From assembly GCA_025449115.1 (NCBI GenBank), contig JAHLKC010000117.1, forward strand, positions 1-64,000: 64,000 nt of DNA, read 5' to 3'. The position numbers were made by a program, and so were the translations under genes. The notes beneath the pieces were generated by a model. It did not search any database. It had not been told where the DNA came from and saw nothing but the letters and a program-made list of their open reading frames with translations. This DNA comes from Chytridium lagenaria (taxonomy: Eukaryota > Chytridiomycota > Chytridiomycetes > Chytridiales > Chytridiaceae). Positions 1,525-52,759 of this stretch are shown piece by piece (positions within the stretch are counted from its first letter, which is position 1; each line of letters starts with the position of its first letter).

Positions 1525-2097
1525 CTTTGCGGGATCTTGTCCTATCGTTTTAGGAGATGGATCGATGACCCTCGTCTCCAACTTGCGTCGTGGTGATATC
1601 GTGTTATGCCCACATTCTCCATCTGGAACAGGAACGGTTTTAGCGGTTGTGAAAACCCCATCGTTCACACCACGTCCACTCGTTCGATTCCCTACAGGAC
1701 TCCTCGTCACGCCTTACCATCCCATTCACGTATCAGGGTCATGGCTGTTCCCCGTTGCCGCGTCACCGTGGGTGGAGGAGATATCGGATGAGACTGTGTA
1801 TAGTGTTTTGTTGGAGGAGGAAGAGGGGGTAGGCCTTGTGGTGTTGTTGTTGGGGGGTGGAGGTTGTGACGCTTGCGAGTGGAGTTGGGGTTGGGGAGTG
1901 GGGAGGTATTTTGCGGGGAGGAGGTGGTGAGGGATTTGGAGGGGATGGTGGGGTGGGAGTGTGGGGTTGTGGAGTGTGGAGGGGTGATGAGGGATGTGGA
2001 GACGGGGTTGGTTTGTGGACTTGTTGGGAAAAGGGTTGTGGAGGAGAAGCGTGAACATGTGAGGATGGCGCATAAATGGGAGGATGCGAGGTTGTAA
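1525..2097 (+). pseudogene. Vint (Hint-type) domain exon, copy 3
   Basis: This has the same acceptor, Cys start and TPYHPI core as copy 2. It differs by gatgGAtcgatg (Thr to Ser) near 1560 and by loss of single G residues near 1826, 1855, 1895 and 1915, which move the second half of the domain through two other frames before the shared C-terminus and stop at 2097. All of these differences fall in G homopolymers. The upstream sequence (gtgccgaccgaatagctgacc) contains stops, so the exon would have to be spliced to something before the array. Confidence 0.6.
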
Positions 2098-2294
2098 TGA
2101 ATATATGTATTTGTGTTATAAATATCAATAAAAGACTTCTAACATGGGGATAAAAAGTGTGCCGACCGAATAGCTGACCGAGTGCTTTTACGTATGTGTG
2201 ATAGAGAGCCCGTTGTTACACAAATATTGAACCAAAAAGCAAAAAGGAAGGGAACCCATTCTTTGTTTTCCCCACCATTGACGAAAAAATACAG

Positions 2295-2865
2295 CTTTGC
2301 GGGATCTTGTCCTATCGTTTTAGGAGATGGAACGATGACCCTCGTCTCCAACTTGCGTCGCGGTGATGTCGGTTATGCCCACATTCTCCGTCTGGTACAG
2401 GAACGGTTTTAGCGGTTGTGAAAACCCCATCGTTCACACCACGTCCACTCGTTCGATTCCCTACAGGACTCCTCGTCACGCCTTACCATCCCATTCACGT
2501 ATCAGGGTCATGGCTGTTCCCCGTTGCCGCGTCCCGTGGGGGAGGAGATATCGGATGAGACTGTGTATAGTGTTTTGTTGGAGGAGGAAGAGGGGGGTAG
2601 GCCTTGTGGTGTTGTTGTTGGGGGGGTGGAGGTTGTGACGCTTGCGAGTGGAGTTGGGGTTGGTGGAGTGGGGAGGTATTTTGCGGGGAGGAGGTGGTGA
2701 GGGATTTGGAGGGATGGTGGGGTGGGAGTGTGGGGTTGTGGAGTGTGGAGGGGTGATGAGGGATGGAGACGGGGTTGGTTTGTGGACTTGTTGGGAAAAA
2801 GGGTTGTGGAGGAGAAGCGTGAACATGTGAGGATGGCGCATAAATGGGAGGATGCGAGGTTGTAA
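2295..2865 (+). pseudogene. Vint (Hint-type) domain exon, copy 4
   Basis: This is the last full unit. It contains the Cys start, GDGTMTLVSNLRRGDV and the shared C-terminus. One base is missing at gatgtcggttatgcc near 2370, more at gcgtcccgtggggg near 2530, one G near 2712, and two near 2765 (ggatggagacgg lacks the tg present in other copies). It is the most degraded of the four. Its polyadenylation region (aatatcaataaaaag) is intact near 2890. Confidence 0.6.
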
Positions 2866-3022
2866 TGAATATATGTATTTGTGTTATAAATATCAATAAA
2901 AAGACTTCTAACATGGGGATAAAAAGTGTGCCGACCGAATAGCTGACCGAGTGCTTTTACGTATGTGTGATAGAGAGCCCGTTGTTACACAAATATTGAA
3001 CCAAAAAGCAAAAAGGAAGGGA

Positions 3023-3481
3023 TAGACACGGTAGTCTCTAACAATCAGTGTGGCGCTCAAGCCCCGTGAACTCAAGTCGCTATTCCTCAGAGCCATCATG
3101 TGCTAAAGCCTTTTCCTTGCTCTGTTGCCAGCCTCAGGCGGTTCAGCTTATTTAATACCCGTCTCTCATCTCCTTCGAGACAAGAGGCTGGTGAAACACA
3201 CGATTCCCCAAGGGGCAACCCTCAACATTCTTTGGTTATTAACGTGATCATGAGCGTTTGACCCACACGGTGATTGAGATTCATCATGCCATTGTGCCTC
3301 ATTCAATTCTAAATGTTACAGGGCTCAACACCCCAGGCGACTTTAATGCTGAAAAATGGGTAAATTAAGAGGAAATGGGGAGTGAGTAGAGAGTTGTGGG
3401 TTGTGTGTTACTTTCTTAATGACAATTATGCTGTAAGAGATTGACAATCTCATATTCGTTTAATTCAAGGCATCTTTTTAA
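3023..3481. other. Sequence beyond the Vint array, no gene recognised
   Basis: The array ends sharply at 3022. What follows has no long open frame and no recognisable RNA gene. The segment around 3030-3090 (ctcaagccccgtgaactcaag) does not resemble anything else in the window. I see nothing I can name. Confidence 0.5.
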
Positions 3482-14606: not shown

Positions 14607-14717
14607 GGTGAACCCTCAACCGGAGGGGAGCACAGAATATTGTATTAAACGGTTTACAGTCTGCATAAGAACATCCGTCGTTGTTTTGAGATTAACAAAT
14701 ATTGTTTGAAGGTGTGA

Positions 14718-15395
14718 TCAAAGATCCATTCCTTCAATCCGAACCTCGGCTGGAGGCTCATTAAACGGGCTGATACCTCCGCTGGCTTTGTTTAGGCTCG
14801 CAGTTCGTAACGGCATCCCGGTCGAAAGCTCTGTTGGATTCGGATTCAGGCTCAACATCAATGTCTGAAGATGGTTGTCAACATTCACAAAATAACAAAG
14901 CCAACTCACAATACCCTCCTTTGCCTTCTTCATGGTATCCAAATGCTGAAATGTGTACACGATCACACCTTTTGACCATTCCTTCTGCATCTTTAAAAAG
15001 AGTCTTACGAGCCCGCTGTAGCGTGTGGAATGGCCAGTAAAACAGAGTGAACAGGACGACGAGGATAAATGGGATGGTGACGAGTTGACCGAACAGGATG
15101 TTTTTGTTGATGATAAAGTAGAGGTCGAGGGATATAAACGGGAAGAGGAGGAGGAGAATCATGATGTAGCGGCCTCTAAACGATGTTACGATTAGATCTG
15201 ATGGTTAGATTCTTGGCTCTTTGGCTCGCGAAGAGCAATATGTGGACATACGGGTTGTAGAAGTTATCCATCTCGTCGTTGGCCATGATGATCCGCTTAA
15301 TATGTAGTGGCTCGTCGATCGAGAGATTGTATGCCCATTCAGGCAGTTTTGTCGAGAAATGGGGTATGGTGGTTTAAGCCAGTTCCGTTTTAGCC
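14718..15395 (-). CDS. Small two-helix membrane protein, copy 2
   Basis: The first visible exon reads PEWAYNLSIDEPLHIKR then IMANDEMDNFYNP and ends at a GTATGT donor (about 15253). The second exon starts GRYIMILLLLFPFIS, continues with a second helix (LVTIPFILVVLFTLFYWPF) and then LQRARK. A frame change in a T run near 14998 (ctctttttaaag) leads to KMQKEWSKGVIVYTFQH, then a C-terminal soluble part and a stop at 14718. A start at MAKTELA (15395) runs into an in-frame TAA, so the true 5' end is unclear and MANDEM is an alternative. Its 3' end has been copied to 29.75 kb. Confidence 0.5.
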
Positions 15396-20969: not shown

Positions 20970-21016
20970 TCGCTGTAAAATAATACTTTAAAAGATGTGT
21001 TCGACAACTATTAACT

Positions 21017-21830
21017 CTAATTCAACATTTTCACTCCCATCCAATTTCTCATGGGACAAGGAGCCCTCACAAACCCAGCCCTCTTAAACAACGTAAAACT
21101 CGCTACATTATAATCCGCTATGAAACAATATGGTCTCAACGCGTCCTTCACGCCTTGCTGTTCTCCAGCAACCTTCTTTATCCATTCTCGCTGAGCCACT
21201 GCTATCGACTCGACACAGAGATTTGCAAGACCGCGTCCCCGATGGGTAGAGACAGTCGAGAGAAGGCCGAGGGAAAGATTAAGGTGAGATACAATCCAGG
21301 CTACCATAGTTCCTTTCTTGGATGATGCCGTGGGGGTTTTAATGCGGATTGCTCTGCTGAGGGAGACCATGGGTTGTTTGGTGAGGAGTTGCATGAGATA
21401 ATTAGGGTCGTAGTTGACAGTGGAATATTCGCGGATCTTGAGAATTTAAGTTTCACCTCAGTATAAAAAGCTACATACCTGATCATAATCTTCAGCGTTT
21501 ACAGCATCTAATTCAAACACCTCTCCAGTTTGTAAATCTGTCCACACATCTCCCAATTTCTTCGCACCAGTGAATAAAACATCCTCAGGTAGTTCGTAAA
21601 CGCCGTATGAGTCCTCTCCCCATAGTGGAGTGGATATTTCTTTAATAATCGGCACATATCTCATATCCACACAGAACAAGAATACTTGTCCAGGCTGAAT
21701 GTCTCCATGTTTATCTACAGTTGTTGATTTCACTTCATTGATCTCCTTAAAGCATTCAAGTAGAACACCTTTTACGAAAGATTTTTGTTCATCTCCGGCG
21801 TCTGCTCTTTATTCATCATAAAATATTGAT
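21017..21830 (-). CDS. GNAT-family N-acetyltransferase, copy 1
   Basis: The N-terminal exon (about 21830-21480) reads CVDMRYVPIIKEISTPLWG, then YGVYELPEDVLFTGAKKLG and DVWTDLQTGEVFELDAVNA, ending EDYDQ at the exon junction. The second exon reads MQLLTKQPMVSLSRAIRI, then TMVAWIVSHLNLSLGLLSTV, then RGRGLANLCVESIAVAQR, then NVASFTLFKRAGFVRAP, ending NWMGVKMLN. The R-x-x-G-L-A segment after a beta-strand is the acetyl-CoA-binding motif A of FR47/GNAT proteins. Substrate unknown. Paralogues lie at 39505-40320 and 41862-42380. Pieces of this 3' end are duplicated at 29925-30132 and 30448-30585. The start is uncertain because the frame changes near 21800. Confidence 0.65.
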
Positions 21831-21961
21831 ATCGAGTAATAAGGAAACATTAATAGAGTAAATGGGGTAGGGTAGAGTCGAGGCAGAGTAAAAAGACGGT
21901 TAGCTTCCCTTTTTCAACACCAGTTTCAAAAGCATCAGTCAAAGACTTACAAACATGCCGC

Positions 21962-22760
21962 TTATCGCAGGCGCACGACGGTTTTCTCCTCCGAAAAGGA
22001 CTTCGTCGTGTCAATTTGAAACTTGTAACGAATCGTGTTGGCGGAAAGAGTGGGCGTAGACAACCACATGTCGATACTCTCACAGTCTCTGTCCCCAGGA
22101 GACAATGCATCAGTTTGGGTGAACTGTGCACCATCAGAGCAACATTGACCAGAAAGGTCGATGACATGGTTCGCCAGTGGAAGGAGCCTCTGTTTAATGA
22201 AGATGGGGAAGGGGAGGTTGAGGGAGAAAAGAAGAGGAATTGGATGGGGGAGTTCATTAAAACCAAAACTAAGGGTATTTACCATGAAGATCCATAAAGG
22301 CTCAACACTCTCTCCTGTCCTTGGTCCTCCGCCATCTCGTTGACCGACGTTCGCTTTTAGCACCGCATAGTTTTGTGGTGTTGGATCGCCTCTTGCCATT
22401 AGCACCACCATGCCTCCTTTTGAGGGAATACGATAGGAGTAAGAGAAGGGTGGTTAATACAAAGATGTGATGGAGGGAGGGTGGATGGGCAGAGTTGATG
22501 GAAATTGTCGCGATGTTTGCAGAAAGGAGAGTGCATGGTTGTGGTAGGCAGGCAGGTAGAGAGAGGTGGAGAGAGGATGTGATTGTGTGGATATCAGCAC
22601 TGGGAGTCTCACCTTGCCTATCAGACAAAAGGGCACAAGTGTGCGTGTCAAGAGTAAAGTCTTCCGAGAAGGAAAGAGGGCCAGGGCAAGATTCGCTGAC
22701 GTGTTGGAAAAGAAAAGGGGATGTGAGAATTTGCATGATGGTATTTATAAAGAGAGTCTG
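21962..22760 (-). CDS. Hypothetical protein, possibly secreted
   Basis: Three spliced segments join in one frame: MQILTSPFLFQHVSESCPG then FTLDTHTCALLSDRQ (donor gtgaga, about 22612); a second exon MVVLMARGDPTPQNYAVLK then PLWIFM (donor gtaaat, about 22281); and a third beginning RLLPLANHVIDLSGQCCSDG that ends EKTVVRLR at 21962. Several Cys and a hydrophobic N-terminal stretch suggest an extracellular protein, but no clean signal peptide is seen and the first exon may lie further upstream (to about 23030). Family not recognised. Confidence 0.4.
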
Positions 22761-23030
22761 ACGATCAAACTCACCCAAGTAACATAATTGATGTCTCAAA
22801 ACCCGGTATCAACAGCAAGGTAATGGAATGAATGGGTCAGGACTGGGAGGTGGATGGGTTGACAAAGTCGCTTTTTTGCGGCGTTTCTTCCTGCGCTGGC
22901 ACAGCATGGTGTACAAGAGGATGATGGGAGGGAGAGTGAAGGTTTGGTCTAAAGAGTAGTTGGTTTGTAAGAAAGGTTGAGGAAGGAGTTTTGTGAGTGA
23001 AAGAAATTGAACAGCGAGGGGAGGGGGCAA

Positions 23031-23386
23031 GGGTGCCCCTTTTATACCTTTTAGCGAGTAATTATACGTCGGAGAATTACAAGGTATTTACGTATCGAAG
23101 ATTTCTTTTTTTTCTTTCCTTCTTTTCCTATATTATGTCATTTAATAAAGGGGTAGATTTGAATAATTAATGCTCACGTTTATGAATAATGGTGGCGTAT
23201 ATAAAATATGTACATACATAACTATTAAATAAATTAATGAAACCAGAAAAGAATCCCACGTCACCGGCATAAAGGAAAGAGTCTAGACTACTTTTCATCA
23301 ATGCATGGGAATTTTGCATAAAGAAAAGAGTCTAGACTGCTTTTCATCAAGGCATGGGAATTTTTATAACCTTCATTCACATTTTT
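23031..23386. repeat. AT-rich spacer with a ~50-bp tandem duplication (23278-23371)
   Basis: The spacer 23040-23270 is AT-rich and gene-free. At 23278 a block (gagtctagactacttttcat, continuing through atgcatgggaatttt) is repeated directly at about 23327 with few changes. It lies immediately upstream of the first OTU/Fanzor-locus exon. I did not find the block or its inverse at the other end of the locus, so I do not call it a terminal repeat. Confidence 0.6.
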
Positions 23387-25805
23387 CGTTCCATCGATGC
23401 CGTCTCCATTTGAGTCGGTTTCTTCAACGAGCGTTCGCGCCGTCAACGTCAGCGCGAACATCAACGCACGCGCAACAGGATGAGCGGTGAACTCATTGAC
23501 GTGGAGGGCAATCCCTCTTCCGTTCCTTTGCTGACTAGTCGTTTGGATCCACCTCCACCCACGCCTCAACAATCCGTTGAGTCAATTTCTGTTGCTCGCG
23601 AGTCTGATCAAGTTATCCTAGAGTCTCCTCATCAAACGACCCTCCCTGAACTTGCAGAAGGCTACTACAATAGGGGGGGTTACGGTTACTTTATTCGGTG
23701 ACACTTAAGGGGGTAAGATAACAGAATCAAAGAACGAAAACAGGCGGTCAAAGAGATCAAAGAAACGGCGATTCAGCAAAAAGTCGAACAAGGTGTAGTG
23801 AGAGTGCGGAGCAAGACGGAACCGCAAATCCCACACCTCCTCGTAGGAGTCCAGGGGTAAAACATTAAGAAGAGAATAAGGAAGGGAAGCGTAAAGGGAA
23901 CAATCACGAAAATGAGAACGGTTAAAATTGCGGTGACAACCAGGACAGACATGGACGGGACGCATCCAACAAGTGCCAGCCCGCCAACGAAGCACGCGCG
24001 AGAGAAAAGGAGGAGAAATATAGAGAGAAGAATCAACGAAAGACGAAACACGGCGGGAACAGGGTTCAACGTAGGAGATTAAAGCAGAAGGAGGAATTAA
24101 GGAGACAGCGTGAGAACGAAGAAAGGAAGAAAGACGAGGACGATAGAACCAGCTTTGTTTCTCTTGTCGACGTTCGCACCCGGACTAGCTCCCGTGAGTA
24201 TTTTTCTTTTCAAAGTGTTTAAGCGTCCCATTCGCCCCACTGTATGCAGTTTTTATCTAATATCCGTGACTTTTTTAAAACCATTGTTGTTGTAGTTGGA
24301 GTTGTGTCTAGGGTTAATGTGGCTGAGTACCACATTTCAAGCACCGTCGAAACTCCGCCCATACCAGATAACCTCAGATTCGAAAGTGCGATAGGAGATG
24401 GCAACTGCCTCGTGAACGCTACACTTCTTGCGCTCCTCGGTCATGAATGTGACAGTCAAACACGAGCCAATGTGAGGCGCTTTATTGGATCTCGGATTCA
24501 ACGGGGGATCGGGGTTGATGGTCAGGGTCGGCGCATTTGTGAGATTGGTGGAGAAGATGATTATTTCCTTGACGAGTGGGATCCATTTCCTCAATTTGGG
24601 GTCACTTCTATCGACTCCCCTGAATTCACCAGTTTGGTTCAGCCCTCGGCTTCGGTTGGGGATCAGCGGTTTCTGTACGCCATGGTGGTTGACCAGTAAG
24701 TTTTGTGTTTCCTTGTTTCTCTTTTAATCCGTCAAGCACCTACTCGCAAGCCCTGACAATAACCTTCTCTTCTAGTGGTCGTCCAGTAATTGTCTATAGT
24801 CAGATTGGAGCTGGACAAGGCTGGAATCAAACGTTTTTCATACCAGGACGTCACATTAACCGTGACGATGTATCCATGGGTATGGAGCTGGCTTTGGATG
24901 TGGAGCCCATCTATTTGATGATCCGTGGTGAAGGATGGAGATCACATTTTTTCGCCGCGGTCAGAATAAATTCTTTTGGCCACTTTGTAAGGAATGATCC
25001 TTCTTCTGGAATGCAAAGGCTTTTTAATTTTGCAAACAGAATGGTATTTGTTTGTTTTTGGTCCGATTTTTAACTTTGTAATTATATCTAATGCTATGTT
25101 AGGAATCCGCTAATAGCAGCCACCGTTATCAAGAATCCGTCGATTCCGACGCATCAGAGATCCCTCTGGTGCGAAATCGCCGACTTCGAGTTCCGCTTGC
25201 TGAGGAGGCTGTCAATGATCCGCCTCGTCAAAACTACGGCCTCAATCATCAAGAATCCGTCGATTCCGACGCATCAGAGATTCCTCTGGTGCGAAATCGC
25301 CGAATTCGTGTTCGGCTCGCTGAGGAGGCTGTCAATGATCTGCCTCGTCAAAACTACGGCCTCAATCATCAAGAATCCGTCGATTCTGACACATCAGAGG
25401 TCCCTCTGGTCGAAAAATGACAACAATGATGGCGACCTTCAACCTCCAAACTTGTCTTGTGATTCGGATTATCTATTTGCGTCAAGCGCTCAAGACGATA
25501 GTGACGAGGACTTTCAACAAACAAACAAGCCGATCAAGAAAAACCAATTCCCATGTTAAAGGACACCAAAAGTCAAAAAAGTCGACCGGAAAGAATAAGC
25601 TTGCTCGTGTTAGCAGCTCAGATGACGTGAAGATATCAAAGAAGAAATCACGTCCTAAAAGGAATGATACCATTGCTTCACGAGTAAAGTCAAATACACG
25701 TCGAGTTAGACGAAAACGTTTGGAGGAAGCTGAGAAAAAAGCTTGGGAGTATTACAGATGAAACAACCGGCACTACAAAGAAGATTAGCATTGGCGCACG
25801 TGGGT
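23387..25805 (+). CDS. OTU-type cysteine protease segment with charged N-terminus
   Basis: This may be the 5' half of a single OTU-Fanzor gene. The first exons encode a Ser/Pro-rich stretch (MPSPFESVSSTSVRAV) and a Lys/Glu/Arg-rich helix (KEEKYREKNQRKTK, ELRRQRENEERKKDEDD), ending at a gtgagt donor (about 24195). The OTU exon (about 24296-24697) has the catalytic-Cys motif IGDGNCLVNATLLALLG. After a short intron the second OTU exon (about 24777-25041) carries NQTFFIPGRHINRDDV and ends the fold with IYLMIRGEGWRSHFFAAVRI, where the His is the likely catalytic base. OTU proteases remove ubiquitin and also occur in mobile-element proteins. The next exon holds 40-residue repeats and a Lys-rich linker (KKKSRPKRN). 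Frame breaks occur near 23478, 25415, 25555 and 25735. Confidence 0.7.
25128..25414 (+). repeat. 120-bp in-frame coding repeat, 2.4 copies
   Basis: The motif aagaatccgtcgattc recurs at 25131, 25251 and 25371, an exact 120-bp period. It encodes 40-residue units starting HQESVDSDASEIPLV and continuing RNRRLRV..AEEAVND then PRQNYGLN. The copies differ by only a few bases. The repeat lies in the acidic/basic linker between the OTU part and the Fanzor part. Confidence 0.95.
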
Positions 25806-25892
25806 CTCATAAAACTCAGAAGAGTAGTGTATCTGTTTATTTCACGGTTTTTGTTTTAAAACATCCGTTCATTAAAATACATTTTCTAATAG

Positions 25893-28800
25893 GCTGCTCA
25901 ACGTGCAGATCCTTTGCTACTACTCGGAATCCCACATCAGATCGAACAGCTCCAAATGCCCGTTCAATCCAAAAAATCCGGTCTCTCTGTGGCCTCGTAG
26001 GCGTTCAGATGAAGAGATTGATGCTGATGGTCTTGTGCCGACACCGAACGAGGCTATTGATGAGATTAACGTAGAAGATTATTTTGAGGCAGCTCTTGGA
26101 GAGAGATATCGTAGCAGTGACGATTCTACAGAGGGGACTGACTATGCAGTGTTGGCCTCCACCCCTATTAACCAGCGTGCTGGATTAATTTACTCGTCGC
26201 CGTGGGAGCTTCCGCCACAAGACACTTATCATTTTCACCGACAAAAGGCTACAGACCCAGTGATGAAGGCTCACCTACTGGCCAGAGAAGCCCCTGGATG
26301 AAACAAGTTGATTCAGAATATGACAGCGATGGGTTTCAGGACGATGAGCCTGAACAGTTGCCATGTACCAAGCGCAAACGAGTTATTGATGGTAAGGGCT
26401 GGTTTGCGTCTTGGAGATGTTTATTGATTGTCTTCCTTTTCAAAACAGATTGTTGACATTTATCCCGAGGGCATCCGACAACTACCCTTTTTCGTCAAAG
26501 ATTGCAATGGAGAAGAGGTTTAAGGTGGACCGAGCTAGTGATGCCTTGTCCCAAACGTACGTCTCCGTTTTTTTTTTGGTCATTTTTTATTTTTTTACCT
26601 TTGAAAAACATCACACATAAAACAAATGAATGCTAACGTACAAACTTTTGTATTTTGTATATGTAAGGGCTTAGGCTGCGGTACCAGTCAATCAAGACAA
26701 CTATTGGCGTAAAGTGGAGACGTAACTCTCGTGCAGCCGGTGCATTTTTCGAGCACATGTCTGCAGCGGTTTCCCGTTTCTCTGAAATTGTGTACTGGTC
26801 TTCTGTCCTTGCGAACTTGTATGTTCTGTCTACCTTTTCAGGTGACTTGGATTCTTTGCGTGTCGGGGAGCTAAATGGATTGTCTGGGAATGAAGACATA
26901 ACTGTCAAACTCGAACGCAGACTTTTCGGCTACGCACCATGTTGATAGAACTATCGTTTTTCGAGTCTTGCTTCCGCGCAGTTTCTGTCGAACGAAGTCG
27001 TAACGGGAAGTTAAGGACGCAACCCGACACTCTTACGGATCCCGGGCTTGAGCATTGTGCGAAAATTGTTCAGAGGATGATGAGCAGCAGGGCAGATGGT
27101 TTTCACGTTTCCCAGTAGGGAAGATCTGGGACCGGCTCTCAAGTCGAACGCTGCAAAATCTATGGCACAAGCAATCAATCATGTGATATTGCATCTGTCT
27201 CAGAGATTGCAGTGTTTCCTTCAAATGGAGATTGCTTCTAGGTTGCCTAATATGGACACAGATCCTACGCTGGAGGATGGCTCTAACAACCCCAAAGGCA
27301 TCAAAGTTGGAAGACTGGCTGCCATCTTGATTCAGATCATTAGAGAAGAGGGGTGCGAGAAAGTTATTTATTTCAGGAAGACCTGACCTTCTCCGATGCC
27401 GAGACGTCCTTAGAAAAGCTGGAGGGAGACAAGATGTCTGGGAGTGGAAGAGATTACCATCCATCCATGGCAGTTGTCACACAAGTTACCGATCTTGTAA
27501 AGGAAATCATGTCGGTTGTTCCGGTTGAGGCAGCTAATGTCTTGGATAACATGGAGGGGATGAAGAGTAGATGGGTCTCGTTCATGCCGCTCATGCACCA
27601 CATGCTTATGAAATTTGAGGCAAGATCGAGTGTGTCCCATCAGACTGAGGTTCTGGACAAGGCGTCCCGATCACAATGCTTTCAGATAATCAAGCAACTC
27701 GAAGCTGGTCTCCTTCAAAGATTACCCCAGAGTTATTCAAAGATTGGTTTTCAAGAAGAGGAAGGCTGTAGTCGCGGCAATGCTTTCATCTATTCGAAGT
27801 GGAACACCACTCAGTGTTTCCAAATGTGTCAGCACCAAAACTTCTAGACGACCTTCAGAGAGCTGTGGATTCCATCCGACAATGTATTGCCGATGGAACT
27901 TACACCGAATCTCGATATCTTGATCCTCGCGGGTTTCGAGTATACACTCTGTTACCCATCCACCACCCCAGAACGTATCACCTCCCTGTATCTACAAACA
28001 CTTTGGCAAGGTTTTTGAGCAAGGTTGGGGGTATGCCCAATGGAATCGAATTTTCGCCTAACAAGGTTAGTTCCTCTGATAATTTCCTCGGATTACTGAC
28101 TAAAGTTTAAAGGAAAATTACACCCCTGAGGAACGATCTCGAATGTGGAGCGTCCCTTTTATCCTTGATCAAGAGCATTTTGAACCCTTACCTGAATTGG
28201 CCAACGATGTTATCCAGATGAAATGGTACTTTGACTGTTGGATGAGTACAGATGGAGTCAGCGGGTCTTGGAGGTTCGTGCAACGAAAAGACATCAACTT
28301 AAAGGACCTTGATAAGCCTCTTTCAGTGACAAACAGCGACAATGTACTGAAGAGGCAATTGGTGGAGAGGGACTGTGCGTCTGTGACGGTTCTGGATCCA
28401 GGTCGGACAGATGTCTTTAGTGGTTTCAATCTTGCTCCGGTCAATTTGGAGCCTGAAATTGGCGGCAGTGGTGCTGTGAAATTGGAGAGAAGGAGATGTC
28501 AAAGGAGGAGGAAAAGGTCTGAACAAAGGGTGGATCGTGATGGAGATGAATCCAAAATTTTGGAAGGGAATGACGATACGGCTAGGGTTTAAATTGATAA
28601 GACGATCGCGAGGACGAACATTACTAAGTGGGAAGATTAAGAAGATGCCGTTGAATCTGCAGAAACCCAACGCTCGTGATGATGGACCTGGAGACTATGA
28701 GGGATTCACTGGAACTCCATGGGAAGTTATTCCGAGACATTACCTAGACCAACGTAAATACCATTATACTCGCGTCAGGATCAGCGGAGAAGAGTGGCAT

Positions 28801-29667
28801 GAGAGAGCTGGGCATAATCGCCGTGAGAGGGTTTGCTGAAGAAGTGGCTTAAATCCTTCTTTTTTTTTTGACTTATGTTTGTTTAGTACAAGGCAGTTTT
28901 GTGCAATAAAGGATGCCACTCCGTCGTCGCGGACATCCAAAGTACACGAATTCCGCGATTACGGTGAATATCAAGGAAATTCATACCACGTGGGTGATCT
29001 CCACTCATGATTTTTCTTTGAATTTGATTCTTTTGAATTCAGAGCCTCTAATTTCCATAATCTTTCCTCACCATTCAAAGTATCTACTGAAATACGACCA
29101 ATCTCTGCGGGCTTCTCGATTCACGCGACACGTAAGAGAACAGAAAGCAAAGCATTTTTTTATCAAAAGGCTTTGTGGAGGTAATTACCATGTAATTTTT
29201 TATATTGTTGTTTAACGAGCACCTTAAAGAACATCGACATACCACCATGGTGATCGGAAGTGGTGCCTCTTTCATTTCCAACCCGGCATTTTCTAAATAC
29301 TTGCGGGGATCGAGACCAGGCCCTATCAAGATGTTTATGAGGGCAATGATGCGCGAACCCGTCTGGGTGTCAGAAGTGATTATTCAGGATGAGTACAGAA
29401 CTTCTTCCGTGTGCCCTTGTTATCCTGAACTGTAAGTACATCTTCTCATTACCCCTTCTTACATTATGCAGTGAGAATTTAAAAAATGTTTGCGATCAGC
29501 AAGGAAATAAGTTACATGCGGTACTGAGGTGTCTACGATGCGGGGTTGTCTGGAATCGCGATCTAATGGGGGCCATTAACATCTTTCTTGCCCTCTGTGG
29601 TGAAGCTTATTTGGATAGTCATCCTTACCGTGGCGAGCTACCAAAGAGTGGACGTAACAAGTCCTGA
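25893..29667 (+). CDS. Fanzor1 RNA-guided nuclease homologue (eukaryotic TnpB relative)
   Basis: Fanzor1 proteins are eukaryotic TnpB homologues that cut DNA guided by an RNA from the gene's 3' end. An acidic linker carries a candidate nuclear localisation signal (CTKRKRVID, about 26370). The body then runs through exons near 26451-26560, 26669-26840, 26990-28070, 28112-28590, 28640-28835, 29060-29180, 29228-29432 and 29468-29667. Motifs in order: FRVYTLLPIHHPRTYHLPVS; RuvC-I VLDPGRTDVFSGF (catalytic Asp); a long helix RASRFTRHVREQKAKHF; VIGSGASF with an RGSRPGP loop; QDEYRTSSVC, with the displaced RuvC-II Glu typical of Fanzor; a zinc finger ending CLRCG; and RuvC-III WNRDLMGAINIF. All three catalytic acids are present. 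The first zinc knuckle reads CPC rather than CxxC. Frame breaks occur in several exons (about 26300, 26520, 26900-27110, 27400, 28610). It may be fused to the OTU segment upstream. Confidence 0.85.
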
Positions 29668-30645
29668 TAGAGGCTGTTCCAGTGTTGTGTTGTGTTGGGG
29701 ACGATAGATGCTGGATCCGTCTTGTTGTTTTGAGATTAACAAATAAAGTCTGCATAAGAACATCTGTCGTTGTTTTGAGATTAACAAATATTGTTGAAGG
29801 TATGACCAAAATCAATCCGAACCTCGAGTGGAGGCTCATTTAAACCGACAAGTCTGAATATCGCAATGTCATATATATTGGTTAATACATCTCGCCGATA
29901 TTGCTTTATCATTTAAAAATTATTAACTCTAATTCAACATTTTCACTCCCATCCAATTTCTCATGGGACAAGGAGCCCTCACAAACCCAGCCCTCTTAAA
30001 CAACGTAAAACTCGCTACATTATAATCCGCTATAAAACAATATGGTCTCAGCGCGTCCGTCACCCCTTGCTGTTCTCTTGCAACCTTCTTTATCCATTCT
30101 CGCTGAGCCACTGCTATCGACTCGACACAGACGTCGAACCTGGAGCCACGATCTACCGCAAAGAATTCCTATCTCTTGCAGCCACTGGTTGGCCTTTCCA
30201 TAATCCTCCTCAGGTAAGTTCAAACTTTTTGTAAAAAAGCCCTCACTTTATTTACAGCTCCCCTCCTGCCGAGCGGGAGCTGCCTGCATATAGCAGCATA
30301 GGAGGCGCGCAGACGTGAAGGGGTACTTGCAAAGCAACGGACGACCGAGGGGTGGCCACCCCTATGATCGTCCTGGTACCCCCCTGGCCCCACCATTGCG
30401 CAAGCGACTCCAGTCCTCAAGGGGGGTGGAAGGAAAAGATTCTGAGGGGGTTCTACATTATAATCCGCTATGAAACAATATGGTCTCGGCGCGTCTGTCA
30501 CGCCTTGCTGTTCTCCAGCAACCTTCTTTATCCATTCTCGCTGAGCCACTGCTATCGACTCGACACAGAGATTTGCAAGACCGCGTTGATCTAGGGTGAC
30601 AGTGTATTTGTGATGAGGGTGGGTGGTGACAATGTGTGGTGGTGT
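29668..30645. repeat. Mosaic of fragments duplicated from elsewhere in the window
   Basis: Four blocks abut one another. 29749-29855 copies 14657-14775 (3' end of the second small membrane protein). 29925-30132 copies 21008-21213 (GNAT 3' end). 30127-30195 copies the ABC transporter exon near 45447-45505, reading WLQEIGILCGRSWLQVRR on the minus strand. 30448-30585 copies 21101-21234 (GNAT again). Between the last two lies a ~310-bp repeat also found at 31868-32140. Blocks are a few per cent diverged from their sources. No transposase frame is present in the mosaic itself. It starts right after the Fanzor stop codon. Confidence 0.85.
30127..30447. repeat. ~310-bp dispersed repeat, copy 1, with ABC-exon lead
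   Basis: Nearly identical to 31835-32135, sharing cgtcgaacctggagcc at the left and ggaaaagattctgaggggg at the right. In both copies the left end is a fragment of an ABCG transporter exon, and the rest (gctcccctcctgccgagcgg onward) matches no gene in the window. Copy 1 is cut at the right by a GNAT fragment. Confidence 0.85.
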
Positions 30646-44549: not shown

Positions 44550-46725
44550 TCAAACAATCTTAGTTTTGGTTTCGCTAGTGTTCGAAGGAACACGTAGCCA
44601 ATAGTAAAGTATCCGAAAAAGAGGATTCCTGTTATCCCAATATTTGCCCAGATAGACAACTTGGTAAGCGCATATTGCTCGAGCACCTGCTGTCCTTGAC
44701 TGAAACAAGGAAGATTAGGATTCTCAGAGCATTCGAGTTTAAGGCCTTCGAATTCGTTTATCATGATAGCACGGTATGCATCTATGTTTCAATGGTAAGA
44801 AAAACGCTTATAAAAAAAAAAAAGGCCCTCTAGGATACTTACAATTTGCGGGTGATATGTATTGGAATCCTTTGAAAACGACAGGAAGGTCGTCGCTGTT
44901 TACCAAGCTCCCAGCGTACAGCAAAAACACGACTCCGACAAGTGGTCCAATAATCTGCGCCAACTGAAACGGCACAGCAGCACCAATGAGGAAACCAACA
45001 GCAACGCAGACCAGAACCTCGACCCATAGTGCAAGGAGGAATCGGAATATGAAGACAGGGCTGTCGATTCGAAGCCCAACGATGAGGTAGATGGATACAT
45101 GTCCGAGAGCGCTAAAGAAAGTAGATGTTGCAGCTTCGGTGATGAATTTGGCGATATAGAAAGAGGAAACGCGGTAGGATCTTGCGGCACGTTCGCGGAG
45201 AAGAATAACTCGCTCCATAGGAAAGACAAGGAGGATCATGGTAATAATGTTAAAGATCGTCTGCAGGCTGTTATGAAAATGTCAGTCGTGCTTCCACTTT
45301 GCAGTATAATACGTACAACAAAGAACAATACTCCGAGACGATTTTGAATACTACGTTGGTCGTTCTTAAGACGGTAGAAGGTGAAGCCAATGAGCAAAGC
45401 CTGGATAATCGTTCTTGCAAGGTTGGCTAAAATCACATCTCTGCCACGTCGAACCTGAAGCCATGATCTGCCGCAAAGAATTCCTATCTCTTGCAGCCAC
45501 GGGTTAGCCCACTCCATTCTTACGACGGCATCATGGTTCTGCCCGCCAAGGCGATTCGCCGCCTCCTTTGCTTCTTTTTCCATCATCTCTTCTGTAGTAG
45601 CGATAGCATCAAGGGAGACAACAGGAAGAACGCCTTTTCCTTTTGCACCGCCTGCCAATCCAATGCTTTTGCCGTTGTGTTCAACAAACGCCTTTGAAGA
45701 GCCTCAACTCGGAGAATGTCTTTCTTCATTTCGTCATCAGGCTTGGAAGAGTCAATGGTTAAGAGATCCATGAAGAAATCAGCTGGGTTTTGGTTTGGTC
45801 TTGGAAGGTGATGGCCAAGGGTGAGAAGTAGTCGAGGGCTTTCAGGGGAGATCCCATATATACAACGGAACCGCCAGAGAGGAGGACGATGTTGTCGAAA
45901 AGGCTAGAAGATCAAAGGATGGTTGGTGAACAGTGGCAATGACGATGCGGCCAGTGGCCAGAGCGTCATTTTTACGTTTTCGATACGGATAAGGCGCTGT
46001 TGGAGTCAAGACCTGTAGTGATATCTCAGTAACTGAAGGAATTAAAGAAAAAAAAAATCTGATCAACGCACCAGAGGTTGGTTCATCCAAGACAAGAATC
46101 TCCGGATCTCCCACAAGCTCCTGCCCGATAGCCACCCGCTTCTTCTCTCCTCCAGATACGCCTCTCACAACATCATCACCAATCCTTGTGTCAGCCGCCT
46201 TTGTAAGCCTCAAACTCTTCAACACTTCCTCCGAACGTCGGTTCTTCTCTTCGTTGGTGTACTCTGAAGAAGGGAGGCGAAGCCTCGCAGCATATCTCAA
46301 GGTTTCCCGGACAGTGAGTTGAGAGTAGAGGACGTCTTGCTGTTCAACAAAAGCCATGGTCTTGCGCCATACTCTGGGATTTCGAAGTTTACCATTGTAT
46401 AGAATGCTTCCACCGAGAGTTCCAGTAGCGAGACGGCCTGAGAGACAGTTTAGGAGAGTCGTCTTTCCGGCTGTTCATAGATATTGGTTAGAACACATGA
46501 ATAGATGCAAACAAATTAAAGCAATGGTATCTCACCTCCAGATGATCCCAGGATGGCGAGCATCTGACCCGATTTGATGCTTCCGTTGACGTTTTTTAGA
46601 AGTTGACGAGTACCCTTCCTTCCTATCGGGATCTCATAACTGATGTTGTTCCATGAAAGCTCATTGTTCCAACGCATTTGCAAAGATTGAGGCTTCGACT
46701 CAAGCTCAACTTGGTGGGTAGTCAT
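44550..46725 (-). CDS. ABCG half-transporter, copy A
   Basis: White/WBC-type ABC exporter with the ATPase domain before the membrane domain. Exon 1 (46725-46537) reads NELSWNNISYEI and stops inside the Walker A (LGSSG). The next exon resumes with GKTTLLNCLSGR, then TMAFVEQQDVLYSQLTVRET, the signature VSGGEKKR and Walker B ILVLDEPTSG. The membrane domain has WLQEIGILCGRSWLQVRRGR, FPMERVILLRERAARSYR and PLVGVVFLLYAGSLVNSDDL, and ends near KPK, with the family C-terminus restored by one A at 44571. Frame breaks occur near 45985, 45890, 45810, 45680 and 44570. It is the most divergent of the four copies, and an exon piece of it (45411-45505) is duplicated at 30.1 and 31.8 kb. Half-transporters need a partner; substrate unknown. 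Confidence 0.85.
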
Positions 46726-47545
46726 GGCTCGTCAAGTACGATAATGAAAATGTCAGTGGATGCGAAGGTGTCGATGATGAATCGAGGTCAAAACTCATGG
46801 TTGGCCAGGTTTTAACAGAGCTGAAAAAACGTGGGTTGTCGGAAAGGCGGCGGAAATCTTCAAGTGTTGTGGACAAACTTAAATTTCAAATAAATATCCA
46901 GTCAAAGCCGTGGGCTCAGCTGGGCGCTGGCATGCCGCAAAAACTTGTTATGCACATGTTACGCATCGCGGTCCGCGGAAAATCCACAATGAAGAAGTGA
47001 ATTCTCGTTAAAAGGAATATAGCCATCGTGGCATTAACTTTCCGCACATTGATCATAGCATAAGTTTACCTTAACTTCTCCGTAAAAAATGGTTTTCATT
47101 CGACTTTTAGCCAAGGTATATGTTTTTTTTTACAAAAGAGATGTATAAGTGTCCGGCCAAAATACGCAGTTTGGATATATTCGGATACAGGTATTGACAC
47201 TTTGACGGCATCGGAACGTACTGGACAAGACAAGGCTTGCTCCTCATTTTTCAATTTTGGGTACGACAATGAATTTGCGGACAAAGATATCCATTTTTGC
47301 CCATGACTTCAAAGCGTGGGTTGAACGCGGGGTTGAATGCCACAAAGTATTTATTTATATGTGTGGGTGATCACTACATAAAATTACAGTGATGCGGCGA
47401 TAATGTAATCACGTAAAAAGATATGAGGTTATCACAGTACAATGATACTTTGTTGACAAACTTCCGATAGGGGAAAAGAAAAAGGAAACATCATCAGAAA
47501 GAAAATAATAAACAGAAAAAGAAACAACGGAACGGACACCCAATT
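46726..47545. other. Intergenic between ABCG copies A and B
   Basis: No supported gene. It should contain the promoter of copy A and the 3' UTR of copy B. Confidence 0.4.
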
Positions 47546-49757
47546 TCAAACAAGCTTGGGTCTTGGGTCTGCCCAAGACTCTAAGGACTGTGTACGCAAC
47601 AAAAAGATATCCAACAAACAAAATTCCCATAATGCCAACACATCCCCAGAGAGTATAGCTCGTCAAAGAATACTGCTTAAGAACTTGCTCCCCAGTTTTA
47701 AAGCATGGTAGCGTAGGGTCCGGGGAGCATACGAGCTTAAATCCCTGTAGCTCGTTGAACATATTGGCGCGGTACGCATCTGCGGAAAAAAGAGGTGTGA
47801 GTTGATGCTCATAAGAAAACAAACAAAGAGATGAACTTACAATTCACCGGCGAGACATACTGCAATCCCCTGAAGAAAATAGGAAGGTCATCGTTATTGA
47901 GCAAGCTTCCACCGTAGAGGAGGAAAACCACACCGACCAACGGTCCTATGATCTGGGCAAGCTGTACAACCGGAACAGAAGCACCAATAAGGAACCCAAC
48001 GGCGATGCAGACCAAGACTTCAACCCATTGTATAACCAAAAACCTTACAAAGGACAACCCTTGGTCGTCAGTGCGAAGTCCCATCATGAAGTAAAGAGGA
48101 ATGCAGCCCAAGAGCGTGAAGAACGTGTTGGGGATTATCTCGGTGATGACTTTTGAAAGGAAGAACGAGGAGACGCGGTATGAACGTGTGGAGCGCTCGC
48201 GAATCATGATGACGCGCTCTAGAGGGAAGACTCCTAGTATAGGAAGAATGGTGTTGAAGACTTGGTTCACGGGCTATTTTTGAGAATTGATGTTAATGCA
48301 TATAGAACGCGATTTTAGTTATTCAAAGGCTATAAAGGGAAACAAAAAAGAGGCGCGCTTACCCAGAAAAACAAGATACCGAGCCGGTTCTGAATACTGT
48401 TTTGGTCGTTTTTTCATACGGTAGAAAGTGAATCCTATTAAGAGCACCAAGATCACCGTCCTAACAAAGTAGGCGATAATCACATCCCTCCCCCTAACAA
48501 ACTGGATCCATGATCTCTGAGTAAGAATGGCAAGCTCCTCAAGCCAGCTGTTGGACCAGTGAAGCCGCTTGACGGGACCTGTCGACCCAGCTTTGATCGT
48601 AAGCTCATGGTCGTCACGATCGAGGATATCTTCGACAGTCTCTGTTTTATCGAGATGCCTAACGGCACCGTAACTTCCGGCTTTGGGATCCACCGGTACC
48701 CTGCCACGATGCTCGATGAAAGCCTTTTGTAGATAGTCGATTCGTTCATTGTCTTTCCTAATTTCGTCGTCGGATTTGGAGGAGTCGATGGTGAGGAGAT
48801 CCATGAAGAAATCGGCGGGGTTCTGGTTAGGGCTACGAAGATGGTGGCCAATACCGGCAAAGTAGTCGACGGCGTCACGAGGAGATCCCATGTAGACCGT
48901 GGACCCTCCAGAGAGGAGGATCACGGTGTCAAACAGGCTCAAAAGCTCAAATGAAGGCTGGTGAATGGTAGAGATGACGATACGGCCAGAGTTTTTGGCA
49001 TCCTGTTTGACGTTATCAATGACGGCAAGCGCGCTGTTGGAGTCAAGACCCGATGTTGGCTCGTCGAGAAAGAGGATCTCGGGGTTACCGACTAGCTCTT
49101 GTCCAATGGCCGTCCTCTTCCTTTCACCACCAGAGACACCACGGGTTTCACCGTCACCGATCGGAGTATCCGCCGCCTTTGACAGACGTAGACTCTTCAA
49201 GATGTCGTCGGCACGGCGATATTTCTCCTCTTTGGTGAAGTCGGAGGAAGGGAGGCGAAGGCGAGCGGCATAGCGGAGAGTTTCACGCACGGTGATTTGT
49301 GAGTAGAGGACGTCATCTTGCTCGACGAAAGCCATGGTTTTCTTCCATGTTTTGGGATCACGAGGAGCGCCATTGTAGAGAATACTGCCGGTCAAGTTTC
49401 CAGTGGAGAGGCGACCCGACAAGCAATTCAGAAGAGTGGTCTTTCCGGCTAAAGAAAAATTGACGAAGAAGCTTTAGCGTGAAGTCTTTTTTTGTAAAGG
49501 TTGCAGTATGATATTAGTCTTTGCCACTTACCACCCGATGAGCCCATGATTGCAACCATCTCGCCAGATTTGATAGTCCCAGTGAGGTTCTTTAGAATCT
49601 GGCGAGTCGTTTTCTTTCCGGATTTGATTTCGTACGTGATGTTGTTCCATGATAGCTTATTTCTCCATGCGGAGGAAGCGTTTGGTGGGACCGGTGACGA
49701 AGTGAAAGAACTTCCACGCTCAAGATCCACGATGGTGGTTGTTGGTGTACTGGTCAT
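47546..49757 (-). CDS. ABCG half-transporter, copy B
   Basis: The best-preserved copy of the four. Exon 1 (49757-49532) has NKLSWNNITYEI and MVAIMGSSG. Exon 2 starts GKTTLLNCLSGRLSTGNL and runs openly through MAFVEQDDVLYSQITVRETL, VSGGERKRTAIGQELV, ILFLDEPTSGLDSNSALAV, STIHQPSFELLSLFDT (H-loop) and ADFFMDLLTIDSSKSDDE. The membrane domain has WLEELAILTQRSWIQFVRGR, VFPLERVIMIRERSTRSYR, IIGPLVGVVFLLYGGSLLN and DAYRANMFNELQGFKLVC, with FPLERV as the conserved cytoplasmic-loop motif. One base in a C run near 47567 separates the read frame from the KTKLV ending of the other copies. A T-run break lies near 48410. Substrate unknown. Confidence 0.9.
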
Positions 49758-50613
49758 TATACAAAATTAGAGAATGTGCAGTACTGATTGTGTGGTGGTA
49801 AGGGAAGTGATATATAGGCGGGATAGTGACGTAAAGGACGGTCTGTTGACTTTTTATACAGGACCGATTGAATTCGACGGAGCCTAGTCCTCAGTGAAGC
49901 CCCCGCTCACCTTGTTGCGGAGTTGTCCATTACTGTAATTTCATTGGTGGGCGGATATGCGGTCTATGCGGAAATGCCGCATTCGGCGACGTCGGCAATT
50001 TTCAGCTTCGTCTCACGCAATCGAGATCCTAACGATGGCATTACGAGTCTCCGCACGCAATTGAATTAATAATGATTTGACGTCAGGGGCACTACATCAA
50101 CTGGTCGGATTGCTAATCCGGCGAAGAAGTCAACTACGATCCTTATGTGATATATAATAAATAATTTGTTTATACATAAATTGTAATAACGTCCTGGGTA
50201 AAAGGCACAAGCGCGGCATGCATTTTTATAACATTTATTGTTTCCTGATCCCCTGTACAATAAGTTTTTTCTCATATTTAGTTTATAGTCACTTTTATCA
50301 TTTGGTGTTAAAGCTTGACCAGCCGAAAATGGTTGATGCGCTGATCTCATTAATTATTTCTGCTTTCTATCAATTACCTAATTAATTTACATAACAAGGA
50401 CTCCTTATTTAAACAAAAATCATAAAAAACGTACAGATAATATCACCATAAAACAATATATATTTTAATATATCCAAGCAGAAATGAAGTTACAGATGTA
50501 GAAGACAGTGAAAATGCATAAAACGACAGAAAATCGATTAAATACAGCAGGAAATGTATGAGCATAATTGCATCAATATGACAGAGTTACGACAAGGAAT
50601 ATTCATGAGACCT
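49758..50613. other. Intergenic between ABCG copies B and C
   Basis: Promoter side of copy B plus AT-rich DNA (50140-50560). A 14-nt stem (about 50104-50123, cggattgctaatccg) resembles a tRNA-Ser anticodon arm but lacks the other arms. No gene supported. Confidence 0.4.
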
Positions 50614-52759
50614 CTACACCAACTTGGTCTTGGGCTTTCCAAGTACCCTCAACAAAGTAAACCCAATCGCAAGGTATCCCAAAAACAAAATACCATTGAT
50701 ACCAATGCAGCCCCAGAGACTGTAGCTGGTGATGGAGTATTGCTTAAGAACTTGTCACCGTCGCGGAAGCAGGGTTGAGTCGGGTCTTCACATATGAGTT
50801 GGAAGCCTTGAAGTTCGTTAAACATATTGGCACGGTAGGCATCTAAAATATAGATAAGGTGAGTATTTGGAATATAAGAAGAATATAAATGGAAATATTA
50901 TGAGAAACAAATACTCACAGTTGACGGGGGAGATGTACTGGAACCCTCGGAAAAACGCAGGAAGGTCATCGTTGTTGAGGAGCGTGCCGCCGTACAAAAG
51001 AAAGATCACGCCGATAAGCGGACCAATGATTTGAGCCATCTGCACGTTGGGGACGGCGAACCAATGAGGAAGCCAACAGCGAGACACACCATGACCTCAA
51101 CCCACTGAATGAGAAGGAATATAGGGAAGGAAAACATTGTCGGTACGCAGCCCCATCATAAAGTACAGAGGATGCAGGCGAGGAGGTGAAAAAGGTTGCT
51201 GGGACGATTTCGGTGAGGACTTTGGCAAAGTAGAAGGAGGAGACGCGGTAAGCGCGTGTGGAACGTTCACGAAGCATGATGACGCGCTCCAGAGGAAAGA
51301 CACCGAGAATGGGCATAATGTGTTGAAAACTTGGTTGACGGGCTAGAAGATAAAAATATTAGATGGATTCAATCAGTGAAAACGTCACGGAGAAATGCTT
51401 ACCCAGAAGAAAAGAATGCCCATGCGATTTTGTATACTTTTTTGATCATTTTTCAGCCTGAAGAACGTAAACCCGATCAAAGAACCAAAATAATGGTACG
51501 CGCCGTAAATGCAATGATCATGCCACGTCCTCGAATCCACTGTGTCCATGACCGATGCAGCAAGATTGAAAACTCGGTGCTCCAGCCATTCGCCCATGAG
51601 ACTTCCACAATGCTTTTATGCACACCCGCCTCAATGTCTCCATCCGCCTTCACAGCTTGCAAAGCAGCTTTGTCGTCTTGATCGAGAATTTGGTCGACGG
51701 TGGGAACTTCGTCAAGAGATTTACCGTGCCCCGCTGTAACGATCTTAGAGTCTTTCGAAAATGCGCTCTGGAGGTGTTCAATACGCTTATCAAGCTTCAC
51801 TTCTTCATCGGACTTGGAGGAGTCGATGGTAAGGAGATCCATGAAAAAGTCGGCGGGTTTTGGTTGGGTCGGCTGAGAGGGTATCCAAGCTTGGTGAAGT
51901 AGTCAACAGCAGTGAGGGGTGACCCCATATAAACGGTGGATCCACCAGACAAAAGTATCACGGTGTCAAAAAGGCTCAGGAGTTCGAATGAAGGCTGGTG
52001 GATAGTGGAGATGACGATACGGCCAGTGTTCTTGGCATCCTGTTTGACGTTGTCAATGACGGCGAGCGCGCTGTTGGAGTCAAGACCCGATGTTGGTTCG
52101 TCGAGAAAGAGGATCTCGGGGTTTCCAACGAGCTCTTGTCCGATGGCCGTCCTCTTCCTTTCACCGCCAGAGACACCACGGGTTTCACCGTCACCAATGG
52201 GGGTATCTGCCGCTTTTGAAAGACGAAGGCTCTTTAAGGTTTCCTCGGCGCGACGATTTTTTTCTTCGGTTGAGAACTTGGAGGAAGGGAGGCGAAGGAG
52301 AGCGGCGTAGCGAAGCGTTTCGCGGACAGTGATTTGGGAGTAAAGGGCGTCATCTTGTTCGACAAATGCCATTGTGCGCGCCACGTTCGAGGATTACGGG
52401 GCTCGCCGTTATAAAGAATGCTGCCGCTGAGTGTTCCTGTGGAAGTCGGCCAGAGAAGCAATTTAAGAGGGTGGTCTTTCCGGCTATTGGATATGTTGTT
52501 AATATCGTGATTTTTCACTAAGCCACTCAGAAAATAAGAGTTATCGATATATAAGCTTACCTCCAGAGGAACCCATGATCGCAACCATTTCACCAGATCT
52601 GATAGTTCCACTCAGGTTTTTGAGAAGCTGCCGTGCTGGTTTTTTCTTGCCCTGGCTGATCTCATAGCCAATGTTGTTCCAAGTGAGTTCATTATTCCAG
52701 GTATGTGTTGAAGACTCTTTGCCGCTGTCAACTGAGTGAGAGACACGTTTGGATGCCAT
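50614..52759 (-). CDS. ABCG half-transporter, copy C
   Basis: Exon 1 (52759-52562) reads NELTWNNIGYEISQGKK and MVAIMGSSG, with the Walker A intron as in the other copies. The next exons have MAFVEQDDALYSQITVRETL, VSGGERKRTAIGQELVGNP, ILFLDEPTSGLDSNSALAV and STIHQPSFELL. After a frame break at ggcgggttttgg (about 51857) come FFMDLLTIDSSKSDEEVK and a linker with VDQILDQDDKAAL. The membrane domain (FSILLHRSWTQWIRGRGM, VFPLERVIMLRERSTRAYR, PLIGVIFLLYGGTLLNNDDL) ends GKPKTKLV at 50614. Other breaks lie near 52450, 51310, 51120, 51060 and 50755. Closest to copy D in the linker and C-terminus. Substrate unknown. Confidence 0.88.

Follow-up and report, generated by a model that had tools for sequence, protein, structure and literature searches.

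A decayed Fanzor1-type transposon gene in Chytridium lagenaria whose ancestor likely joined an OTU-like protease domain to the nuclease

Did an OTU-like cysteine-protease domain that lies 5' of a Fanzor1-type nuclease, a eukaryotic cousin of the CRISPR nucleases, in the chytrid Chytridium lagenaria once belong to the same protein? The two occupy positions 24297-25043 (OTU) and 25892-29658 (Fanzor) on the plus strand of the window, that is, the whole 64,000-nucleotide stretch of contig JAHLKC010000117.1 that was analyzed, and an earlier note on this DNA had proposed that a continuous chain of spliceable exons starting at 23387 encodes both as one protein. We resolved the locus, hereafter C117, into the following parts (window positions):

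23387-23661: backbone DNA, outside the gene, common to contig C193
23673-24143: 470-bp repeat, outside the gene, with copies elsewhere at 81-100%, which removes the 5' end of the gene
24297-24695, plus strand: OTU exon 1, with the GDGNC motif and the catalytic-type Cys (24406-24408); donor GTAAGT, phase 2
24776-25043, plus strand: OTU exon 2 (..GRPVIVYS.. ..RSHFFAAV..), with the catalytic-type His (24945-24947), invariant column H185 of the OTU alignment
25103-25411, plus strand: linker exon that continues the frame of OTU exon 2 and contains the greater part of the 120-bp repeats
25128-25415: 120-bp tandem repeat array of the linker
25413-25825, plus strand: basic, NLS-like linker with S-I-G-A-R-G near its end, in three frames with frame slips
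25892-26393, plus strand: zinc-knuckle-like segment (GCSTC..HIRSNSSKCPF) and acidic Fanzor N-terminal part, with two frame slips
26449-28065, plus strand: Fanzor N-terminal part and body, pieces in several frames
28113-28589, plus strand: Fanzor RuvC-I exon, with the DPGRTD Asp (28395-28397)
28579-29182, plus strand: Fanzor pieces between RuvC-I and RuvC-II (28579-28833 and 29078-29182)
29229-29432, plus strand: Fanzor RuvC-II region, with the QDEYRTSS Glu (29391-29393)
29473-29658, plus strand: zinc ribbon/TNB (Pfam PF07282) and, for RuvC-III, the WNRD Asp (29557-29559)

The individual parts named in the earlier note are present: a full OTU-like domain spans two exons, the 120-bp repeats lie in the linker, and the Asp, Glu and Asp of the RuvC domain were all found on the Fanzor pieces. 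The catalytic-type Cys and His are invariant in an alignment of the OTU copies of C117 and two paralogous loci, C168 and C25, and the Asp of GDGNC is kept in C117 and C168 and is Met in C25. On its own, the C117 copy falls below the cut-off of the Pfam OTU profile (E 0.12 and 0.081; 13.3 and 13.9 bits against 23.3), whereas the C168 copy exceeds it (26 bits), and all three rows of the alignment match the profile (best 3.8e-10). A PDB search with the same alignment returned, as the top 8 of 14 matches, proteins described as ubiquitin thioesterase, otubain-like or OTU domain-containing (best 7.3e-4). Judged by sequence similarity, the OTU assignment is weak from C117 alone and firm once the paralogues are added, and we consider the region a candidate deubiquitinase-like domain that probably acts in cutting ubiquitin.

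The nuclease scored 29.9 bits with the Cas12f1-like_TNB profile, above the cut-off of 26.3, with two of the three rows of the Fanzor alignment matching at the limit used and the third, C168, lacking that part. The Fanzor1 motif quoted from Bao and Jurka (2013, PMC3627910), D-X(125-275)-[TS][TS]-X-X-zinc finger-X(5-50)-RD, is present with gaps of 241 in the C117 read-through and 164 in the C25/C40 row. Its zinc-finger region reads TSSVCPC ... WNRD, the first cysteine pair being C-x-C in both. The NCBIfam model guided_TnpB matched two of three rows (best E 3e-7); the row shown scored 16.6 bits against a cut-off of 100, which is not defining for Fanzor1 because the model was built for bacterial and archaeal proteins. 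The best PDB match, weak at E 0.052, was the Guillardia theta Fanzor1 (GtFz1).

The window copy is a pseudogene that cannot make the protein, because its 5' part is cut by the 470-bp repeat and because reading it through takes 12 frame changes that introns cannot explain, located between 25.41 and 28.59 kb, a count that varies with the choice of pieces. The proposed continuous chain of spliceable exons was not confirmed here. These breaks reflect decay and not general assembly noise, since the window has other ORFs that stay open over long distances (594, 384 and 316 aa), the latter two matching an ABC transporter and methionine synthase. The proposed start at 23387 was also rejected: that exon is local backbone, because the DNA is common to a stretch of contig C193 (98.8% identity over window positions 21803-23661) where no OTU or Fanzor was found in 3.6 kb (tblastn E no better than 0.38; OTU profile scores all negative), and the 470-bp repeat stands between it and the OTU. 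This repeat was itself ruled out as coding sequence by its copies elsewhere, and a Pfam search with the minus-strand ORF at 23705-24184 gave no match.

The order OTU, linker, Fanzor on one strand recurs in the diverged paralogues C168 and C25 (22-36% amino-acid identity), so that the adjacency whose absence from related genomes would, according to the earlier note, have counted against a fusion exists twice more in the same genome. Only C168 is an independent instance of it, one of the three loci having been the starting point and another having come to light when the DNA 5' of a Fanzor was read. Nine Fanzor loci were found in the genome, three of which (C117, C168 and C25) have an OTU. At the remaining six (C40, C43, C7, C51, C66 and C3), no OTU was scored in the surrounding DNA examined, and the Fanzor match begins inside the body; one of them, C66, a short fragment, keeps about 64 residues of the body start with no OTU upstream, which we counted against fusion. 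Two more OTU copies were found: the fourth, C130, is cut short by the end of its contig, and the fifth, C10, had no Fanzor match.

In C25, exons of 330, 63, 210, 160 and 319 nt joined at GT-AG junctions yield 360 open codons from the OTU to the knuckle, the four introns preserving a single frame across OTU, linker and Fanzor N-terminus while stops abound in both other frames; one slip past this frame, a further 401 open codons lead into the Fanzor body. The C117 segment with the zinc knuckle and acidic part aligns with C25 (42% over 45 aa, E 0.001), and by eye its basic, NLS-like linker has a comparable exon in both C25 and C168. C25 has defects of its own (a slip at the OTU start, another before the body, and further stops, among them two TAA, in the RuvC part), and C168 is without the RuvC part; all three copies examined are broken.

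The OTU evolved under purifying selection: in the comparison of C25 with C130, 140 codons contained 17 synonymous changes and 11 nonsynonymous ones, one stop codon and 11 codons with gaps having been excluded (dN/dS 0.148, p 1.5e-6). For the Fanzor, the comparison of C25 with C40 gave a dN/dS of 0.31 (317 codons, p 0.005), and constraint was not significant against C43 (0.65, p 0.14), a comparison that includes a block past the 5' end of C43. The linker exons showed no significant constraint (0.37, p 0.14; 0.77 over 48 codons).

Because the order is shared by three loci, the C25 frame is held and the OTU was under purifying selection, we consider it likely that the C117 feature is the decayed remnant of a Fanzor1-type transposon gene and that its ancestor gave rise to a single polypeptide comprising OTU, basic linker, zinc-knuckle-like segment and Fanzor1. 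The single protein originally proposed would thus apply to the ancestor, with the C25 frame and OTU selection in its favor, but not to the copy in the window.

Two separate genes within one transposon, an OTU ORF and, 3' of it, a Fanzor ORF that has a promoter and start of its own, would account for the NCBI gene model, a 505-aa Fanzor fragment without the OTU whose first ATG lies near 26.3 kb, and would resemble the arrangement reported for Helentrons, in which OTU is present as extra ORFs (PMC4067079). The C25 linker also has Met codons in frame that could start a shorter protein. However, C25, compared by eye, lacks the Met chosen in the NCBI model (it reads AAWFDD in place of MKQVDS), and a C25 intron sits immediately 5' of the knuckle, within the set of four that holds the frame from OTU to Fanzor, so we regard this arrangement as unlikely. 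Still less credit goes to a fused protein in which the OTU would work as a self-processing protease, releasing the Fanzor by cleaving the polyprotein. The tymovirus OTU-fold protease processes a polyprotein, OTU-fold proteases can do both jobs, and an N-terminal OTU with a long linker before the Fanzor would suit such a cut.

We give a comparably small chance to the view that the OTU was picked up as a passenger, takes no part in the work of the nuclease and is linked to it by hitch-hiking. The loss of the usual Asp in the C25 OTU and the broken state of the examined copies speak for it; in contrast, the OTU dN/dS and the presence of the OTU at exactly the three of nine Fanzor loci that escaped truncation within the body speak against it. 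Chance neighbors or an assembly artefact, suggested by the many frames of C117 and the repeats that surround it, can be dismissed almost outright, given that about 0.001 OTU-Fanzor neighbors within 2 kb on one strand are expected from 5 OTU and 9 Fanzor loci against 3 observed, that the order is repeated in two other loci, and that the intron after OTU exon 1 has the identical place and phase in C117 and C168 (by eye).

The best reading of the carrier of the putative OTU-Fanzor1 fusion is a non-autonomous transposon. In the C25 family, the right end is sharp and structured, is conserved over 68 nt and occurs at 16 places or more against at least 2 left ends, and C40, C43 and C7 have differing start points and a common end; 5'-truncation with an excess of 3' ends is a Helitron2-type trait, here read from end counts that are both lower bounds. 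No Rep/helicase match was found among the 8 ORFs upstream of the C25 OTU; a non-autonomous element would carry none. A firm Helitron2 assignment was rejected: C25 showed no asymmetrical terminal inverted repeats (no inverted word of at least 9 common to its 300-bp ends) and no TTTT before the left end, the left flanks ending in GATGC (C25) and TTACC (C130). A search for target-site duplications at C40, C43 and C7 turned up nothing over 6 bases, and the right end of the window's own family was not found. The right-end fold gave z values of -3.9 and -3.7. In an alignment of 14 right ends (partial C7:227165 and partial C50 left out), compensatory support for it is thin, with a single pair in which both partners changed (a number reached by 230 of 500 shuffles) and a covariation score equalled by 32 of 500 shuffles; an Rfam search of the right end returned 0 matches.

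For function, we tentatively envisage that the hairpins of the right end would form an omegaRNA scaffold, with the flank as guide, and that the Fanzor half would cut sites matching the flank, which would favor retention or duplication of the element. The deubiquitinase-like half would probably act on the nuclease itself or on proteins at the break, making the complex longer-lived or steering repair. In a bolder version, which we regard as possible but somewhat doubtful, the omegaRNA would lead the OTU to chosen breaks, where it would take ubiquitin off the nuclease or off histones and repair proteins, with the result that repair copies the element. Protection of the nuclease from turnover, or action on chromatin, had been offered as speculation in the earlier note, and such a role has precedent because other mobile elements carry OTU or Ulp1 domains. 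If true, a fusion within one selected gene would tie ubiquitin to the stability of an RNA-guided nuclease or to break repair, open that link to experiment in a chytrid, and provide a natural blueprint for putting a deubiquitinase at a chosen DNA site.

No fused relative was found among 7999 and 5406 scored candidates from the protein database, an absence that is weak for part of the candidate sets, and the single hit among 8000 candidates scored with the Fanzor alignment was the C117 locus itself. Among viral contigs, 114 stretches fit the pattern with the Fanzor alignment and 0 were confirmed; plasmids gave no match. The literature matches listed contained no Fanzor-OTU fusion, most subscription papers and bioRxiv lying outside the scope of that search.

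Spizellomyces punctatus, too, is a chytrid. Its Spu-1 element, which encodes SpuFz1, has a 75-nt omegaRNA scaffold and 134 ghost loci (Saito et al. 2023, PMC10432273). SpuFz1 resembles the nuclease described here in being a fungal Fanzor1-type RuvC-TNB protein, and Spu-1 resembles the C25 family in its short structured right end adjoining the stop codon (75 nt there, 68 nt here) and in the abundance of right ends without a gene; unlike C25, it bears inverted repeats at both ends, and the main text of that paper has 0 occurrences of OTU. The Chlamydomonas elements CRe-1, -2 and -3 of the Helitron2 group likewise combine an intron-rich Fanzor1 gene with a non-autonomous element, 5'-truncated copies and 3' ends in excess, but differ from C25 in their asymmetrical inverted repeats and TTTT, and the paper names no OTU (PMC3627910).

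The OTU side has parallels in elements with other partners. Ginger1 transposases carry a C-terminal OTU or Ulp1, for which a role in transposition or repair has been proposed, and thus also fuse a deubiquitinase-type domain to the DNA enzyme of a transposon, but the enzyme is a DDE transposase and the OTU C-terminal (PMC2836005). Helentrons are rolling-circle elements that carry an OTU protease, as an extra ORF beside Rep/helicase and not fused to a Fanzor (PMC4067079), and in adintovirus PolB, as here, an OTU-like domain forms the N-terminal part of a DNA enzyme, although that enzyme is a DNA polymerase (PMC11071296). Deubiquitinase-type domains recur across unrelated mobile elements, such as Ginger1 and Helentrons.

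An OTU cysteine-protease-like domain is followed, on the same strand, by a Fanzor1-type nuclease in contig C117 (129,380 bases; genome size 41.9 Mb), at a locus from which NCBI names a protein, Chytridium lagenaria BC829DRAFT_421071. The parts of this copy, all on one strand, are as follows:

24297-24695, OTU-like domain exon 1, joined to exon 2 in phase 2
24776-25043, OTU-like domain exon 2
25128-25415, 120-bp tandem repeat carried by the linker exons 3' of the OTU domain
ending at 29658, zinc-knuckle-like segment and Fanzor pieces, after the linker

Taken alone, the C117 OTU segment scores 13.3-13.9 bits against a Pfam OTU cut-off of 23.3; in a three-locus alignment with its counterparts on contigs C168 and C25, all three rows match Pfam OTU (best 3.8e-10), and the top 8 of 14 PDB matches are named ubiquitin thioesterase, otubain-like or OTU domain-containing. 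The Fanzor read-through, a reconstructed protein that ignores frame slips, scores 29.9 bits with the Cas12f1-like_TNB profile (cut-off 26.3) and carries the Bao-Jurka pattern of RuvC and zinc-finger spacing. Two of the three Fanzor alignment rows match guided_TnpB (best 3e-7, the row shown being under the profile cut-off), and the best PDB match, a weak one, is Guillardia theta Fanzor1 (E 0.052).

The same order recurs in the genome. An OTU search recovered C168, where Fanzor pieces that stop short of RuvC-I lie about 1.6 kb downstream on the same strand and where the OTU intron, judged by eye, has the same place and phase as in C117; reading upstream of the C25 Fanzor revealed a third OTU. 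Identity to C117 is 31% (C168) and 22% (C25) for OTU, and 33% (C168) and 36% (a C25/C40 composite) for Fanzor. A fourth OTU, with linker, runs into the contig end at C130, and a fifth, above the Pfam cut-off, lies on C10, where the genome Fanzor searches gave no match. The Fanzor match begins within the body at six of the nine Fanzor loci (C40, C43, C7, C51, C66, C3), and a profile scan around these six found no OTU.

At C25, OTU and Fanzor probably form a single gene. Five exons (330, 63, 210, 160 and 319 nt) with GT-AG introns throughout join OTU to knuckle in one 360-codon frame, the remaining frames of this stretch being rich in stops. Beyond one slip, 401 open codons over three exons reach into the Fanzor body; the RuvC part carries further stops. 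The OTU domain has been under purifying selection, with dN/dS of 0.148 between C25 and C130 (140 codons, p 1.5e-6, setting aside one stop and 11 gapped codons). For Fanzor, dN/dS is 0.31 between C25 and C40 (317 codons, p 0.005) and a non-significant 0.65 between C25 and C43 (p 0.14); the linker exons give 0.37 (p 0.14) or, by another estimate over 48 codons, 0.77, neither of them significant.

The C117 copy is decayed, since frames of 594, 384 and 316 codons stay open elsewhere in the window. Mapping its read-through onto the DNA takes 12 non-intron frame changes between 25.41 and 28.59 kb, a count that varies with the choice of read-through pieces, and the OTU gene's 5' end is missing. The start at 23387 proposed in the earlier note falls outside the gene, because 21803-23661 is shared, at 98.8% identity, with a 3.6-kb stretch of C193 lacking any OTU or Fanzor match, and 23673-24143 is a 470-bp repeat. 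Copies of this repeat elsewhere are 81-100% identical, two of them above 99.5%, and it is therefore probably a young insertion.

Direct repeats of 214 bp (97%; 21006-21219 and 29918-30131) flank the OTU-Fanzor stretch, the first overlapping an FR47-type acetyltransferase ORF. A 72-bp repeat (92%; 14655-14726 and 29744-29813), whose second copy lies directly downstream of Fanzor, could mark either the right end of the element or its target; of the copy at 14.7 kb, about 30 bases are absent from C193. Elsewhere, a Metazoa_SRP RNA match (3024-3337, minus strand, 80.3 bits) adjoins and partly overlaps a series of ~770-bp direct repeats at 1-3094, and 45842-56000 (minus strand) holds three or four ABC-transporter-like genes repeated in tandem (Pfam on one).

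The C25 element spans 6,445 bases, and a common right end (3' terminus) closes the C25, C40, C43 and C7 copies, with eleven further places carrying it with small changes. A 68-base right-end query matched at least 16 places, and the left end at least two. This right end, which represents the C25 family rather than the window's own, is structured: it folds better than shuffles (z -3.9 and -3.7), and in 12 distinct rows 97.5% of pair cells are kept, a share that does not exceed 52.2% after sliding. Both sides change at one pair only, a count reached by 230 of 500 shuffles, and 32 of 500 shuffles reach the covariation score. Inverted repeats, TTTT and a Rep/helicase were sought in the C25 carrier and none was found; it is therefore not assigned to Helitron2.

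In the most probable model, the right end would supply the omegaRNA and its flank would supply the guide, Fanzor would cut sites matching that guide, and OTU would deubiquitinate the nuclease or proteins at the break. Precedents are Ginger1 transposases fused to OTU or Ulp1 (PMC2836005), Helentrons with OTU ORFs (PMC4067079) and adintovirus PolB with an N-terminal OTU-like domain (PMC11071296). Within the literature searched, passages of papers that mention both terms included, we found no OTU-Fanzor fusion, and "OTU" is absent from the main texts of PMC3627910, PMC10711439, PMC10432273 and PMC11423790; among chytrid genomes, the search covered that of Chytridium lagenaria.

C25-family right ends, viewed with 50-60 bases of upstream sequence, stand beside differing flanks on C142, C75, C1, C265, C10, C133, C7, C113 and C224, several of these flanks opening with TA-rich sequence. 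These right ends recall the ghost loci of Spizellomyces, and the C25-family right end is also reminiscent of SpuFz1, with its 75-nt scaffold and its ghost loci (PMC10432273). The right-end pattern likewise recalls CRe Fanzor1 elements and their 5'-truncation (PMC3627910).
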